Assembly: GCF_900142575.1 (NCBI RefSeq)
Contig: NZ_FRBI01000012.1
Span: 62,001-126,000 of the forward strand
DNA: 64,000 bases
Source: Actinacidiphila paucisporea
GTDB lineage: Bacteria > Actinomycetota > Actinomycetes > Streptomycetales > Streptomycetaceae
Reading direction: 5' to 3'
Shown here in pieces: positions 57,028 through 64,000 of the stretch. The position numbers and the translations under genes were made by a program. The notes beneath the pieces are model-generated. The model did not search any database and was not told the DNA's origin. It saw only the letters and a list, made by a program, of their open reading frames with translations. Position 1 is the first letter of the stretch. Each line of letters opens with the position of its first letter.

Positions 57028-58061
57028 GCGGTGGCCTCCGCCCGCTTGCGTACCCAGGCGTTGAGCAGGGTGGCGAGCAGCAGCATCGCCCCGAGGAAGA
57101 ACTTGAACCAGTCCGGATTCCACTGGGCGTAGACGATGCCCTTGCTGGTCATGCCGAAGATGAACGCGCCGACCGCGGACCCGACGGCGCTGCCGTAGCC
57201 GCCGGTCATCAGGCAGCCGCCGATCACGGCAGCGATGATGTAGAGGAACTCGTTGCCGACGCCCTCCCCCGACTGGACCACGTCGAAGGAGAACAGCAGG
57301 TGCTGGCCGGAGATCCAGGCGCAGAAGGCCACCGCCATGTAGAGCCCGACCTTGGTGCGGGCCACCGGGACGCCGACCGCGCGGGCCGCGCCGGCGTTGC
57401 CGCCGGCCGCGAAGATCCAGTTGCCCGCCCGGGTGCGCAGCAGCACCCAGGTGGCGACGGCGACCAGGCCGAGCCACCACGCGATCGTCACCTGGAGGTC
57501 GACCGAGCCGACGGTCCAGTGCGAGGCGAAGAGGTCGTGGGCGGCGGGGAAGCCCTCCATGTCGCCGATCGACTTGGTCGCCACCGTGCCGCTGATCAGC
57601 TTGGTCAGGCCCAGGTTCAGGCCGGTGAGCATCAGGAAGGTGCCCAGCGTGATGATGAAGCTGGGCAGCTTGGTGCGCACCAGCATGATCCCGTTGAAGG
57701 CGCCGAGCGCCAGCGTCACCAGCAGCGAGACGCCGACGCCGACCCAGACGTTCGCGGTCATCTGGAAGCTGAACATCGAGGAGACCAGCGCGGAGCTGGT
57801 CACCATCACGCCGGCCGACAGGTCGAACTCGCCGCCGATCATCAGCAGCGCCACCGGCACCGCCATGATCCCGATGGTGGACGAGGCGTACAGGACGGTG
57901 CCGAAGCTGGACCACTGCAGGAAGGGGTCGGCGGCGAAGGCGAAGAAGACGAAGACCGCCACGGCCCCGACGACCGCCCCCAGCTCCGGCCGCCCGAGCA
58001 GCCGCCGCGCCGTGGACCGCGGCGCCAGCCGCTCGTCCGCCACGGCCGCGAGGTCGCTCAT
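57024..58061 (-). CDS. CUT2-type sugar ABC permease (RbsC/XylH family)
   Basis: 345 residues, eight to ten helices. BPD_transp_2 hallmarks: [46 protein letters not shown], and [22 protein letters not shown] for ATPase contact. This class carries ribose, xylose, galactose and inositol. It overlaps both neighbours by 4 nt. Start ATG at 58061; the open frame runs on to 58532 inside the next gene. Confidence 0.9.
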
Positions 58062-59071
58062 CGGGTACCCCGCTTGGCGTACGACAGCAGCGCGTCGGCG
58101 TCGTCCTTGGTGACGATCTGCGGGCCGGTGAGCACGGCCTGGCCGCCGCCGAGGGTGTCCTTGTTGTAGCGGTCGAGCCACAGCAGGTCCACCGCCTCGT
58201 AGCCCTGGAGGTAGGGCTGCTGGTCGACGGCGAAGCCGATGGTGCCGTTCTTCAGCGACGTCGCGACCTGCGGGTTGAGGTCGAACGTGTCGATCTCGGC
58301 GCTGGAGCCCGACTGCTGCTTGGCCTTGGCCGCGGTGTCGGCGAAGGGCGCGCCGAGGGTGACCACGGAGTCGATCGACTTGTCGGACTGGAGCTTGGCC
58401 TGGATCGCGGACAGCACGTCGGGCATGTTGGTGCCGTTGACGTAGAGGTTGTCCATCCGGCCGTGGAATTTCTCCTTCGCGCCGGCGCAGCGCTGTTCGA
58501 GGCCGACGTTGCCCTGCTCGTGCAGGACGCACAGGGCGTGGTGCCTGCCGCGGGTGTTCAGCTCGTCACCAACCGCGTTGCCGGCGACGGTCTCGTCCTG
58601 GCCGATGTGGGTGAGCGCGCCGAACTCCTTGGACTGGGCGGCGCCGGAGTTGATGGTGATCACCGGTATGCCGGCGGCGACGGCCTTGGCGACGACCGCC
58701 TTCATCGCGTCGGGCTTGGCGAGGGTGACGACCAGGCCGTCGACATGGCTGTCGATGGCGGCCTGGACGAGCTGCGCCTGCTGGTCGCCCTGGTCGCTGC
58801 TGGAGTAGACGAACTTGATGTTGTCCTTCGCCGCGGCCTGCTCGGCACCGTTCTGGACGATGTCCCAGAAGGTGTCGCCGGCTCCCGAGTGGGTGACCAT
58901 GGCGAAGGTCCAGTGCGGTGTGTTCACGGCCGAGCCGTTCGCCGCGAGCTTCTTGGCCCGGTCCTCCGCGCGCTTGCCGCCGGTGCTGCTGCACCCGGCG
59001 AGGCCGGCCGCGCCGAGCACCACCGCCAGGAGTGCGCCCAGCGCCTTCGTTCCCGCCCTTGCCATCGCCAC
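58058..59071 (-). CDS. Sugar ABC transporter substrate-binding lipoprotein
   Basis: 337 residues. Lipobox GLAGC (Cys27) after a hydrophobic signal. The periplasmic-binding-protein type I fold shows [53 protein letters not shown] and [21 protein letters not shown] at 59071 is used because AAGG lies 9 nt upstream; the ATG two codons later is possible. Together with the GntR and iol genes next door it probably binds an inositol or related polyol. Confidence 0.88.
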
Positions 59072-59141
59072 CGGGCCCTGCCTTTCCGTTCCGTTCGTGG
59101 TGCAGCCGTGAGGGAAGTGCTGCGAAAAGCTTCGAGCGACG

Positions 59142-59170
59142 ACCATCCCGGCGGGGCAAGTATCCGTCAA
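59142..59170 (-). promoter_or_regulatory. Possible promoter of the sugar ABC operon
   Basis: Minus-strand TTGACG (59170-59165), a 17-nt spacer and GATGGT (59147-59142), about 70 nt before the lipoprotein start, in the 159-bp gap after the GntR gene. Confidence 0.35.
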
Positions 59171-59187
59171 GGGCTACGGCAACCCTG

Positions 59188-59207
59188 CCGCCGGGGGGCT
59201 CCGGCGG
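59188..59207 (-). terminator. Hairpin after the GntR regulator
   Basis: CCGCCGG and CCGGCGG pair in a perfect 7-bp stem around a 6-nt loop, 23 nt after the regulator stop. Transcripts into the ABC operon may be reduced here. Confidence 0.4.
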
Positions 59208-59230
59208 GCTCGCGGCCTGCGGTATGCGGC

Positions 59231-60013
59231 TCAGCCGCGGACCAGCAGCCGGAATTCGAAGGTGTAGCGGGAGGCCCGGTAGACATGGGTGCCGTATTCG
59301 ACCGGCCGGCCGCGGTCGTCGTAGCTGACCCGCCGCATGGTGAGCAGCGCCGCCCCGGCGGGTTCGCCGAGCAGCCCGCACTCCTCGGCGGTGCCCGACC
59401 TTGCGCCGACGCTCTGCTGGGCGCTGTGCAGGGTGATGCCGTGCCGGCGCATCAGCGCGTACAGGCCGCTGCTCTCCAGCTCGCCGGTGGGCAGGTCGAG
59501 CAGGTCGCTGGGCAGGTAGTTGCACAGATACGCCATCGGTTCGCCGCGGGTCAGCCGCAGCCGGTGCACCACGGTGACCTGGCAGGACTCCGGCAGCCCG
59601 AGCGCGGCGGTGACCTCGGCGGGGGCGGGGCCGCGGGTGTTGTGCAGCACCCGGGTGGTGGGGTGCAGGCCGGCGGCGGCGAGGTCCTCGTAGAGGCTGC
59701 TCAGCGCCATCGGCCGGGCGACCCCGGTGTGCACGACCTGGGTGCCGACGCCCCGGCGGCGCACCAGCAGGCCCTTGTCGACCAGCAGCCTGATCGCCTG
59801 CCGGACGGTGGGGCGGGACAGGCCGAGCCGGGCGGCCAGCTCGATCTCGTTGCCGAGCAGGCTGCCAGGAGTGAGCGCACCGTCCTCGATGGCCGTCTCC
59901 AGCTGCCGGGCCAGCTGGAAGTACAGCGGTACGGGGCTCGCCCGGTCCACGGCGAGCCGCAGCTGTGCGGGCTCGTGCTTGGGCACGCTGGGAGCGTAGC
60001 GGGACGGCATCAT
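59231..60013 (-). CDS. GntR/HutC family regulator, candidate iol repressor
   Basis: 260 residues. The winged HTH has GNEIELAARLGLSRPTVRQAIRLLVDKGLLVRRRGVGT and PLYFQLARQLETAIEDGALTPG before it. The C-terminal UTRA domain (TTRVLHNTRG, RLRLTRGEPMAYLCNYLP, RVSYDDRGRPVEYGTHVYRASRYTFEF) binds the effector. It lies between the leftward ABC operon and the rightward iol operon, with a palindrome in front of both. AAGGA precedes ATG at 60013. An inositol-derived effector is likely but unproven. Confidence 0.88.
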   Translation of the reverse strand: MMPSRYAPSVPKHEPAQLRLAVDRASPVPLYFQLARQLETAIEDGALTPGSLLGNEIELAARLGLSRPTVRQAIRLLVDKGLLVRRRGVGTQVVHTGVARPMALSSLYEDLAAAGLHPTTRVLHNTRGPAPAEVTAALGLPESCQVTVVHRLRLTRGEPMAYLCNYLPSDLLDLPTGELESSGLYALMRRHGITLHSAQQSVGARSGTAEECGLLGEPAGAALLTMRRVSYDDRGRPVEYGTHVYRASRYTFEFRLLVRG

Positions 60014-60027
60014 GACGGGAAGTCCTT

Positions 60028-60073
60028 ATGTCCGGACATTGCGTTGACACGGGTGCGGGTGACGCGGGAGGTT
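60028..60073 (+). promoter_or_regulatory. Operator and promoter between gntR and iolG
   Basis: ATGTCCGGACAT at 60028-60039 is a perfect 12-bp palindrome, 15 bp before the regulator start. Four bases on, TTGACA (60044-60049) is a perfect -35 with GAGGTT (60068-60073) 18 nt downstream, reading into iolG. A repressor on the palindrome could control both directions. Confidence 0.6.
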
Positions 60074-60126
60074 GGGACGGCGCGGACAGCCGTCACGACT
60101 CCTCTTCCGAAGGGGCAGGAGCAGGT

Positions 60127-61167
60127 ATGCGGATCGGACTCATCGGCGCGGGACGGATCGGCACCTTCCACGCCGGGACGCTGCGGGAGCACCCCGACGT
60201 CGGCGAGCTGCTGGTCGCGGACGCGGACCCGGCCCGCTCGCGGCAGGTCGCGGCCGGGCACGGGGGCCGGGCCATGCCGGTCGAGCAGGTCTTCGCGGCC
60301 CGTCCCGACGCGCTGGTCATCGCCTCGGCGACGGCCGCGCACGCGGGCCTGATCGCCAGGGCGGCCCAGGCCGGGGTGCCGGCCTTCTGCGAGAAGCCGA
60401 TCGCCGTGGACCTCGCGGGCACGATCGCCGCGCTGGACGCGGCGGAGGGCCGGGACGCGGTGCTGCAGATCGGCTTCCAGCGCCGCTTCGACCCCGGTTA
60501 CGCCGCCGCCCGGCAGGCGGTCGCCGCCGGGCGGCTCGGCCGGCTGCACACCGTGCGCACCGTCAGCTCCGACCCGGCGCCGCCGCCGGCCGCGTACGTC
60601 CCGCTGTCCGGCGGGCTCTACCGGGACTGCCTGATCCACGACTTCGACATCCTGCGCTGGGTCACCGGCCGGGCGGTGACGGAGGTGTACGCGGCGGGCG
60701 CGAACGTCGGCGCCGACTTCTTCCGGGCGGCGGGCGACGCGGACACCGCGGCGGTACTTCTCACCCTGGAGGGCGGGGTGCTGGCCACCGCGACGGCGAC
60801 GCGGTACAACGCGGCCGGGTACGACGTGCGGATGGAGCTGGCGGGCACCGACGACCAGATCGCGGTCGGCGTCGCCCCCCGGACGCCGCTGACCTCGGTG
60901 GAGCCGGGCGCCGCCCCGCCGCGTACGCCCTGGTCGGGCTTCCTCGACCGGTTCGGCTCGGCCTACCGGGCCGAAATGGACACCTTCCTGCGCGTCGCGC
61001 GCGGGGTCGAGGCCAATCCCTGCGAGGGTCGGGACGCGCTGCGGGCCCTGCTGGTCGCGGAGGCCTGCGAGATCTCCCGGCGCGAGCGGCGCCCGGTGCC
61101 GGTCGCCGAGGTCGAGGCGGCCGCGCGGGCCTGCCACGGCGGCGCGCGGAAGGGAGTGGTGGCGTGA
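60127..61167 (+). CDS. iolG: Inositol 2-dehydrogenase, Gfo/Idh/MocA family
   Basis: 346 residues. NAD site IGLIGAGRIGTFHAGTL, catalytic Lys in FCEKPIAVDLAG, and DCLIHDFDILRWVTG with the active-site Asp/His. It oxidises myo-inositol to 2-keto-myo-inositol. AGGAG precedes the ATG. The downstream gene overlaps by 4 nt (GTGA). Identity as IolG rather than another sugar dehydrogenase rests on its place before iolE, iolC and iolB. Confidence 0.88.
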   Translation: MRIGLIGAGRIGTFHAGTLREHPDVGELLVADADPARSRQVAAGHGGRAMPVEQVFAARPDALVIASATAAHAGLIARAAQAGVPAFCEKPIAVDLAGTIAALDAAEGRDAVLQIGFQRRFDPGYAAARQAVAAGRLGRLHTVRTVSSDPAPPPAAYVPLSGGLYRDCLIHDFDILRWVTGRAVTEVYAAGANVGADFFRAAGDADTAAVLLTLEGGVLATATATRYNAAGYDVRMELAGTDDQIAVGVAPRTPLTSVEPGAAPPRTPWSGFLDRFGSAYRAEMDTFLRVARGVEANPCEGRDALRALLVAEACEISRRERRPVPVAEVEAAARACHGGARKGVVA

Positions 61168-62024
61168 GGCGGGACCGGATCGCGGCGGCGCCGATCTCCT
61201 GGGGCGTATGCGAAGTTCCCGGCTGGGGGCACCAGTTGACGCCCGATCGGGTGCTCGACGAGATGACCGGGCTCGGCATCACCGCGAGCGAGTTCGGCCC
61301 CGACGGCTTCCTGCCGGGGCCGCTGCTCGCCGCGTACGGCGTGACCGCGGTGGGCGGCTTCGTGCCCGCGGTGCTGCACGACCCCGGACACGACCCGCTG
61401 CCCGACGTACGGGCCGCGCTCGACCGCTTCACCACGGCGGGCGCCCGCACCCTCGTCCTGGCCGCGGCGACCGGACTCGACGGCTACGACGAGCGTCCCG
61501 CCGTCGACGCGGCGGGCTGGCGCCTGCTGCTGGACCGGCTGGACAAGATCGCCGCGCTGGCGGCGTCGCTGGGCGTCACCGCGGCCCTGCACCCGCACGT
61601 CGGCACGGTCGTCGAGGGGCCTGCCGAGGTCGACCGGGTGCTCGACGGCAGCGGTATCGGCCTGTGCCTGGACACCGGGCACCTGCTGATCGGCGGCACC
61701 GACCCGGTGGCCCTCGCCCGGCGCGCCGCCTCCCGCGTCGCCCACGTCCACCTCAAGGACGTCCACGCCGCCACCGCGACGGCGGTCCGCACCGGCCGCA
61801 CGACCTACACGGCCGCGGTCGCGGCAGGCCTCTACCGCCCCCTCGGCGCCGGCGACCTCGACCTCCCGTCCCTGCTCACGGCCCTGGAGTCGGCGGGTTA
61901 CCCCGGCTGGTACGTGATGGAACAGGACACCGTCCTCCCCACCGCCCCCCCACCGTCCACGGGCCCCCTGACCGACGTCCGCACCTCCCTGACCTGGCTA
62001 GAGTCCTGGACCCCCGACCAATGA
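61164..62024 (+). CDS. iolE: Inosose dehydratase-like TIM-barrel enzyme
   Basis: 286 residues, AP_endonuc_2 fold. Metal and active-site segments: RIAAAPISWGVCEVPGWG, SEFGPDGFLP (Glu), TAALHPHVGT, LCLDTGHLLIGG, VAHVHLKDV and WYVMEQDT (Glu). It is the IolE/IolI group; order in the operon favours dehydration of inosose to a diketone. The GTG start overlaps iolG, and its stop overlaps the next start. Confidence 0.85.
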   Translation: MRRDRIAAAPISWGVCEVPGWGHQLTPDRVLDEMTGLGITASEFGPDGFLPGPLLAAYGVTAVGGFVPAVLHDPGHDPLPDVRAALDRFTTAGARTLVLAAATGLDGYDERPAVDAAGWRLLLDRLDKIAALAASLGVTAALHPHVGTVVEGPAEVDRVLDGSGIGLCLDTGHLLIGGTDPVALARRAASRVAHVHLKDVHAATATAVRTGRTTYTAAVAAGLYRPLGAGDLDLPSLLTALESAGYPGWYVMEQDTVLPTAPPPSTGPLTDVRTSLTWLESWTPDQ

Positions 62025-63241
62025 GGCCCCCCGAGCCAATCAAGCCCGTCCGGCAATCCCAACCGCCCGAGCCGATTCAGCCCGTCCGGCGATTGAGGGC
62101 ACCCGGGCAGGTGAACGCGCGACCCGAGCAATCGCAGCCCGTCCGGCGATTGAGGACACAAGGGCGGGCGGGCGGGGAAGAACCCGCGGGCGCCCCGTAC
62201 GACGTCGTCACGCTCGGCCGGGTCGGCGTCGACCTCTACCCCGAGCAGAGCGGCATCGGCCTCGCCGAAGTCCGCAGCTTCGCGAAATACCTCGGCGGCA
62301 CCGCCGGAAACGTCGCGGTGGCGGCTGCCCGCCTCGGCCTGAGCACGGCGGTGCTCAGCGCCGTCGGCCCCGACCCCTTCGGCGACTTCGTGCGCACCGC
62401 CCTCACCGCCTTCGGCGTGGACACGCGCCTGCTCGCGACCGTGCCGGGCACCCAGACCCCGGTGGTCTTCTGCGAGTTGTTCCCGCCCGACGACTTCCCG
62501 ATCCACTTCTACCGCCGCCCCGTCGCGCCCGACGAGTGCCTGACCCCCGACCACCTGCCGGCGGCGGTCCGCACCGCCCGCGCCCTGTGGATCACCGGTT
62601 CCGCGCTGGCCGTGGAGCCGACCCGCTCCACGGTCTTCGCCGCGCTGGAGGCGCGGGCCGGCGGCGAGGTCTGGTTCGACCTGGACTGGCGGCCCGGTTT
62701 CTGGGCGGACCCCGCCGAGGCCCCGGCGCTGTACGCCCGCGCGCTGGCCTACGCGACGCTCGCGGTCGGCAACCGGGCCGAGGTCGAGGTCGCGGTGGGC
62801 AGCGCGGACCCCGAGACGGCGGCCGGGCTGCTGCTGCGGCGGGGGGTGCGTACGGCGGTGGTCAAGCAGGGCCCGGCGGGCGCCCTGGTCCGTACGGCCG
62901 GGGAGAGTTACGTGGCGCCGCCGATGCCGGTGAAGGTCGTCAACGGCCTGGGCGCCGGCGACGCCTTCGGCGGCGCCCTGTGCGCGGGCCTGATCGCGGG
63001 CGACCCGCTGCCCGAGGTGCTGCGGGCGGCCAACGCGGCGGGCGCGATCGTCGCCTCCCGGCTGGCGTGCGCCGACGCGATGCCCACCAGGGCGGAGATC
63101 GACGCGATGCTGCACGAGCGGAGCGCCCCGGGCGGCGGTACGGGCGCGGCCCCACGGCTCGCGGAGGACCGCGCCCCGGGGCCGGACGCGGACCCGTCGG
63201 ACGGAACCTCCGACCCGCACCCGGGAGTTGACCTCGTATGA
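62021..63241 (+). CDS. iolC: 5-dehydro-2-deoxygluconokinase (PfkB family)
   Basis: 406 residues if started at ATG 62021, which overlaps the iolE stop as ATGA. The PfkB core begins at PYDVVTLGRVGVDLYPEQSG (residue ~59). It has the first signature GGTAGNVAVAAARLG and the ATP/anion motif NGLGAGDAFGGALC with the catalytic Asp. The first ~55 residues are translated repeat sequence (PIKPVR, PIQPVRRLR, SQPVRRLR) and are not part of the fold. The only other starts, GTG 62111 and a TTG near 62150, lack ribosome sites. The tail (370-406) is also disordered. Confidence 0.85.
   Translation: MRPPEPIKPVRQSQPPEPIQPVRRLRAPGQVNARPEQSQPVRRLRTQGRAGGEEPAGAPYDVVTLGRVGVDLYPEQSGIGLAEVRSFAKYLGGTAGNVAVAAARLGLSTAVLSAVGPDPFGDFVRTALTAFGVDTRLLATVPGTQTPVVFCELFPPDDFPIHFYRRPVAPDECLTPDHLPAAVRTARALWITGSALAVEPTRSTVFAALEARAGGEVWFDLDWRPGFWADPAEAPALYARALAYATLAVGNRAEVEVAVGSADPETAAGLLLRRGVRTAVVKQGPAGALVRTAGESYVAPPMPVKVVNGLGAGDAFGGALCAGLIAGDPLPEVLRAANAAGAIVASRLACADAMPTRAEIDAMLHERSAPGGGTGAAPRLAEDRAPGPDADPSDGTSDPHPGVDLV
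62033..62156. repeat. Three copies of the dispersed CCCGTCCGGCGATTGAGG element
   Basis: Copies at 62033-62057 (shortened and mutated), 62069-62099 and 62126-62156. Each begins GAGC, contains CAGCCCGTCCGGCGATTGAGG or close, and is separated from the next by 11-26 nt. The element is familiar from Streptomyces intergenic regions. Here it lies inside the iolC open frame. Confidence 0.75.
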
Positions 63242-64000
63242 CGCACCTTCCCGCGGGCCGCGGCGCCCGGGACGGCTACGACCTGTGGATCGACCCGGCG
63301 TCGGCCGGCTGGACGTATTCGGCGCTGCGGGTGCTGACCCTGGAGCCGGGCGGGCAGCGGGAGTTCGGGACCGGGGACAGCGAGTGGATCGTGCTGCCGC
63401 TGGCCGGGGCGTGCACGGTGCTGGTCGACGGCGAGGCCTTCGCCCTGCACGGCCGCGCCGACGTCTTCTCCGGGGTGACGGACTTCGGGTATCTGCCGCG
63501 TGACGCGCAGGCGGTGGTCGCCTCGGCGGCCGGCGGCCGCTTCGCACTGGCCGGCGCCCGCTGCTCGCGCCGGCTGCCCGCGCGCTACGGCCCGGCGTCC
63601 GGCGTGCCGGTGGAACTGCGCGGCGCGGGCGGCGCGAGCCGCCAGGTGAACAACTTCGCCGCGGCCGGGGTCTTCGCGTGCGACCGGCTGATCGCGGTGG
63701 AGGTGCTGACGCCCGGCGGCAACTGGTCGTCCTTCCCGCCGCACAAGCACGACGAGGCGGGACCGCACGAGTCGCAGCTCGAAGAGGTCTACTACTACGA
63801 ACTGGCCGGCGGTCCGGCCGCGTTGGGCTACCAGCGGGTCTACCCCTCCCCGCATGGCTCCACGGACGTGCTGGCCGAGGTCCGCTCGGGCGACGCCGTG
63901 CTGATCCCGGACGGCTGGCACGGACCGAGCATGGCCGTGCCCGGCTACGACATGTACTACCTCAACGTCATGGCGGGGCCGGGCCCTTCGCGGTCCTGGC
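63238..64000 (+). CDS. iolB: 5-deoxy-glucuronate isomerase, 5' part (runs off the window)
   Basis: 254 residues visible, continuing past base 64000. It starts by ATGA overlap with iolC. Bicupin fold; the metal-binding C-terminal cupin shows SSFPPHKHDEAGPHESQLEEVYYYE with two His and Glu, and later GWHGPS. It converts 5-deoxy-glucuronate to 5-deoxy-2-ketogluconate, the substrate of IolC. iolD and iolA probably follow outside the window. Confidence 0.93.
   Translation, partial: MTHLPAGRGARDGYDLWIDPASAGWTYSALRVLTLEPGGQREFGTGDSEWIVLPLAGACTVLVDGEAFALHGRADVFSGVTDFGYLPRDAQAVVASAAGGRFALAGARCSRRLPARYGPASGVPVELRGAGGASRQVNNFAAAGVFACDRLIAVEVLTPGGNWSSFPPHKHDEAGPHESQLEEVYYYELAGGPAALGYQRVYPSPHGSTDVLAEVRSGDAVLIPDGWHGPSMAVPGYDMYYLNVMAGPGPSRSW

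Follow-up and report, generated by a model that had tools for sequence, protein, structure and literature searches.

A gene for the kinase IolC opens with a stretch of short repeats, translated on paper into some 60 residues that precede the kinase fold. This raises the questions of where the repeat came from, whether translation really begins upstream of it, and whether the resulting leader has become a working part of the enzyme. We addressed these questions in the 64,000-nucleotide stretch of DNA that contains the gene (the window) and by comparison with related genomes.

Layout of the iolE–iolC junction

The plus-strand gene order, iolG-like, iolE-like, iolC and iolB, is that of an inositol operon, and the iolE–iolC and iolC–iolB junctions are both 4-base overlaps (Table 1). 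The iolG-like and iolE-like genes upstream of iolC score below their respective cut-offs, and iolB downstream scores above its own. IolC matches TIGR04382 with 341.7 bits against a curated cut-off of 300, which places it in this family; the PfkB match spans residues 61–356. Since the kinase match covers residues 60–364 and the alignment with 3pl2, the closest relative of solved structure, begins at residue 59 of IolC, residues 1–59 are considered to be extra. A tRNA scan of positions 58000–64000 found none, and a search for annotated plasmid context matched only two records, in neither of which the listed match coincided with an annotated feature, so that it was of little help.

Table 1. Coordinates of genes, element copies and candidate start codons around the iolE–iolC junction (window positions).
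Feature	Position	Strand	Remarks
iolE-like (myo-inosose-2 dehydratase family)	61164..62024	+	TIGR04379 140.9 bits, below curated cut-off 290
iolE-like stop TGA	62022-62024	+	
iolC, 406 aa (5-dehydro-2-deoxygluconokinase)	62021..63241	+	ATG overlapping iolE stop
Repeat-derived IolC leader, residues 1-59	62021..62197	+	family matches begin at about residue 60
Degenerate element copy	62045-62062	+	codon phase 0; first 10 bases exact, 12/18 overall
Exact CCCGTCCGGCGATTGAGG copy	62081-62098	+	IolC frame, read PVRRLR
In-frame TTG, alternative internal start, residue 25	62093..62095	+	
In-frame GTG, alternative internal start, residue 31	62111..62113	+	codon absent in G011 (L053)
Exact CCCGTCCGGCGATTGAGG copy	62138-62155	+	IolC frame, read PVRRLR
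In-frame TTG, alternative internal start, residue 44	62150..62152	+	
iolB, runs off window	63238..63999	+	ATG overlapping iolC stop; TIGR04378 261.7 bits against cut-off 205

The first-pass annotation had counted three copies of the element between iolE and the IolC fold. Two of these are exact, but the third matches at 12 of 18 positions only, so the junction is better described as carrying two copies plus one relic. At up to three mismatches the two exact copies are the sole matches to CCCGTCCGGCGATTGAGG in the window; shuffled versions of the window gave a mean of 0.30 matches, and two matches were reached in 5 of 100 shuffles. The copies at the junction are direct repeats and, as had been noted from the sequence originally, the frame stays open from the overlap ATG across both exact copies into the kinase.

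Dispersion of the element in the Streptomycetaceae

A near-consensus form of the element, CCGTCCGGCGNTTGAGGA, was found in 90 of 249 genomes of the family, distributed over 4 of 17 genera and reaching 281 copies in a single genome, while its reversed control gave one match across the same sample. Comparison of genomes establishes an element family. In the 8.16 Mb source genome, the exact 18-mer occurs only at its two iolC copies, and with up to three mismatches there are 21 matches against 13 for the reversed control. The earlier description of a 'dispersed Streptomyces repeat' is thus borne out for the family, but not for the source genome itself.

The element is frequently present as an inverted pair. 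A hairpin that is almost perfect (-51.4 kcal/mol, z -13.5) is predicted for one such pair, taken from a relative, and the 23-nt half-site alone has no stable palindrome of its own (-4.1 kcal/mol, z 0.06). Five of the six reading frames of the element are without a stop. In order to describe its usual setting, we scored the flanks of 71 copies, excluding every iol locus, with a crude test of GC content by codon position. Because 60 of the 71 were coding-like on neither side, 10 on one side and only one on both sides in a single open frame, the claim that the repeat is normally intergenic stands.

REP and REPIN elements, which are associated with RAYT transposases, are likewise short dispersed units that occur singly or as hairpin-forming inverted pairs. 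The streptomycete half-site differs in not being a palindrome itself. Moreover, the Y1 (RAYT) transposase PF01797 was detected in 3 of 12 genomes tested and was absent from G165 and G265; the nine genomes without it include two with 225 and 281 copies of the element. On the absence of Y1 from 9 of 12 genomes, together with the non-palindromic half-site, we rejected a REP/RAYT origin. In a literature search that covered few subscription journals, no paper contained sequence or peptide strings of the element, or its 17-base core in combination with Streptomyces. Literature on repeats, searched by title or start of abstract with similar coverage of subscription journals, yielded no description of the element, and none occurs in the accessible portions of PMC1590033 and PMC4681348.

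Conservation of frame at the junction and in CobB linkers

We surveyed the iol locus in 35 genomes of the genus, the source genome being G000. Eighteen of these form a close iol clade in which iolE and iolC are neighbours, and a further 11 have a more distant adjacent pair whose iolC is 51–55% identical to that of the source. An adjacent same-strand iolE is missing from the examined stretch in five genomes (G001, G012, G009, G029 and G028), in which IolC is 55–59% identical, and G016 gave a weak match only. The start assigned by our script was the in-frame ATG, GTG or TTG nearest to the overlap; an offset of -279 returned for G005 was an artefact and was excluded. In 17 of the 18 close-clade species an in-frame start lies exactly in the iolE-stop overlap. 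The exception, G025, has its start 47 bases downstream and a leader of 4 codons. The 17 leaders that begin in the overlap vary from 6 to 103 codons, and all are in frame.

The element is present in the leader of five of the 18 close-clade species, namely G000, G031 (four copies), G013, G011 (a remnant) and G008. All intact copies lie in codon phase 0, and frame 0 is free of stops. Two degenerate copies in G013 register one base off by pattern because of internal indels, their first bases being in phase 0. A 4-mismatch match in G004 (L066), which overlaps the start of the core, was taken as chance. Same-strand spacings between copies are multiples of 3 in 7 of 7 cases at the junction as against 20 of 61 elsewhere, in a test that omits the degenerate copies of G013 and G000. 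With the degenerate copies and a further spacing of 24 in G004 included, the counts become 9 of 10 and 21 of 62. Part of this frame signal follows automatically from the 57-bp spacing that is common in the family and divisible by 3; when this spacing was removed, 6 of 7 spacings at the junction remained multiples of 3, compared with 13 of 54 elsewhere. These extended tests gave Fisher p values of 0.001–0.003, although the species are related and the counts are therefore not independent.

An orthologous intergenic array located before degV (Pfam DegV) in seven species provides a comparison. Its spacings are off the 3-base grid in five of the seven, and the gene start after the array is conserved. 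In G011 this array happens to be open into the next gene without being its leader. An open frame by itself therefore proves little, and the start shared in the overlap carries more weight. At the sequence level, conservation of both the frame and the start position at the iolE–iolC junction is clear. In the source genome (L142, C45:378382 region), a TGA within the element appears to stop the gene upstream of degV (...KPSLPGD before the stop), and in relatives this gene appears to end before the array. An array in G008 (L143) was considered as a further N-terminal capture and rejected, the gene probably starting after it.

On a tree of the 18 close-clade species, the distribution of the repeat requires two changes. 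G000, G031, G011 and G013 form one clade (100/99) and G008 stands apart. The junction copies in G008 are of a variant form, GCCCGCGCGGCGNNTGAGCG, that occurs at 32 places in that genome, three of them at the junction, but nowhere in the four remaining species with the repeat. The position of G008 in the tree and its own subfamily of the element establish capture in a second lineage; it would follow that, at this very junction and with the frame unchanged, G008 either acquired the element independently or had an older array overwritten by conversion.

An element copy in G033 was found inside CobB, in the linker between the Pfam CbiA and GATase_3 domains. We extracted this linker from 34 genomes of the genus (the 35th, G014, gave no match) and from 30 relatives, the latter chosen for carrying the element. 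Counting matches with up to two mismatches and leaving out those with three (for example in G029), 13 of the 34 genus genes and 10 of the 30 relatives carry the element in this linker (23 of 64 overall). The linkers contain 25 elements in 15,647 bp and the flanking conserved CobB domains none in 74,343 bp, counts that establish its absence from those domains. In all of the 64 genes but one, that of G030, the length of the linker is divisible by 3. The copies occur on both strands and in several frames, and none of the nine plus-strand copies is in the stop-containing frame. All ten element-bearing linkers among the relatives come from one other genus, and the linkers of seven relatives from two further genera were without the element. 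The source genome has a copy of its own (C48:63074-63091; L144, L162), in frame and with one mismatch to the N consensus, where the linker reads ...VRPVRRSRTG.... Because conserved domains lie on both sides of the linker, translation of the element in this family is nearly certain, a point that the N-terminal case of IolC alone could not establish. In several CobB linkers (L168-L170, L173 and L176) a second, PAPSRNRGSAPDPG-like peptide recurs beside the element. We take this peptide to resemble GGGGCTCCGCCCCGG repeats, and it may be another captured intergenic repeat.

Translation and role of the leader

The first-pass annotation had held the ATGA overlap to be the only well-placed start of iolC, and had named a start near residue 56 as the case that would count against a translated leader. 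Three further in-frame TTG and GTG codons lie within the leader (Table 1), and there is no start codon near residue 56. Initiation at one of these internal codons, leaving the repeat as a partly or mostly untranslated iolE–iolC spacer, is nevertheless improbable. Such codons are present in the leaders of four of the five repeat-bearing species (G000, G031, G008 and G013), and in the source genome and G031 the GTG follows a GAGG at a distance of 12 nt, while no clear Shine-Dalgarno sequence was found before the overlap ATG. However, the leader remnant retained by G011 contains no ATG, GTG or TTG inside it, and the first internal start of G013 is preceded by 67 codons that are all in frame. In addition, most of the repeat-free close relatives have no further in-frame start, and comparison of the junction in relatives lacking the repeat, as proposed originally, places the start still in the overlap in all but G025. 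As 17 of the 18 close relatives start there, with or without the repeat, the pattern of starts argues that translation of the leader most likely begins at the ATGA overlap.

The same annotation had proposed that the repeat was domesticated as a basic leader, and a selected function, such as binding to nucleic acid or membrane, a regulatory role or contact with a partner, could in principle account for the two changes on the tree, where the second lineage carries a distinct subfamily at this junction without a change of frame, and for the persistence of the leader in four sister species. We consider this very unlikely. Net charge in the five repeat-bearing species spans +6, +5, +1, -4 and -5, so the leader cannot be called basic as a class; its sequence is not conserved, and its length differs even between sister species (25 codons in G011 and 103 in G013). 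No fold is predicted for IolC residues 1–58 (pLDDT about 30–49, in a model with a mean of 63.5 based on a shallow 7-row alignment), and the 11 more distant IolC proteins of the genus have leaders of 2–11 residues. It is also very unlikely that the array serves mainly as an RNA or DNA element, such as a terminator or a processing or recombination site, which is open by chance. The hairpin formed by the inverted pair from a relative would fit such a role, but the copies at the junction are direct repeats, the junction RNA folds no better than shuffles (z +1.14), and the single Rfam match there scored 20.5 bits where the gathering score is 35.6, so that no family reached this threshold.

Given the variable charge, the predicted disorder and the short leaders of distant IolC proteins, we read the leader as a tolerated spacer; sequence comparison and modelling suggest that this, rather than a new working part, is most likely what it is. 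In our view it is highly probable that permissive linkers have captured an intergenic palindromic element neutrally and in frame, and that in IolC it is translated as a disordered leader. According to this scheme, a half-site of about 20 bp from a dispersed, hairpin-forming intergenic element of the Streptomycetaceae would have inserted downstream of the coupled iolC start, which overlaps iolE at ATGA, in the stretch without conservation that precedes the kinase fold. There it would have spread as a direct-repeat array and been translated as a disordered N-terminal leader, an insert being tolerated if the frame is kept and no stop is introduced. The element would persist at iolC because the leader is a permissive spacer, and the same capture would have taken place in the CobB interdomain linker. 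We infer the actual translation of the IolC leader, its neutrality and the mechanism of insertion and amplification from these comparisons. It is a more doubtful proposition that species-specific subfamilies of the hairpin-forming element repeatedly seed the same disordered linkers, in IolC and CobB, in frame; if so, selfish DNA from between genes would be a lasting supply of linker sequence for proteins in at least two genera.

That the element recurs at two sites in proteins provides an entry to how non-coding repeats become protein, and also raises the question of whether linkers are simply where selection leaves such repeats. It is also a caution that N-termini in the Streptomycetaceae can be repeat-derived. 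The best-known case of dispersed palindromes captured in frame is that of Rickettsia, to judge from two reviews, PMC2229807 and PMC10969869, which describe in-frame fusion of small palindromic repeats as established for the Rickettsia palindromic elements (RPEs) and some MITEs. RPEs are dispersed palindromes of about 105–150 bp with an ORF of their own, found in intergenic regions and fused in frame inside conserved protein genes (PMC2229807, PMC10969869). The streptomycete element resembles RPEs in being dispersed, mostly intergenic and in frame in conserved proteins (CobB linker 23/64, IolC leader 5/18). It differs in not being an element of about 100–150 bp with a conserved ORF of its own, the unit being a half-site of only some 20 bp that occurs in several frames and on both strands, and in that it occupies an N-terminal leader and an interdomain linker, with a tandem array at IolC. 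Within the two proteins examined it was located only in linkers. ERIC/Correia-type MITEs, described in PMC2229807 as small non-autonomous repeats with frames fused to host ORFs, share this fusion; the streptomycete unit is much shorter. Here a far smaller unit appears to lead to the same outcome in actinobacteria of high GC content.

A separate arrangement was noted elsewhere in the source genome (L141, C48:59570-59642), where an inverted pair of the element lies between two genes, downstream of an ATGA and upstream of a GAGGAGG–GTG start, and a frame stays open through the pair.
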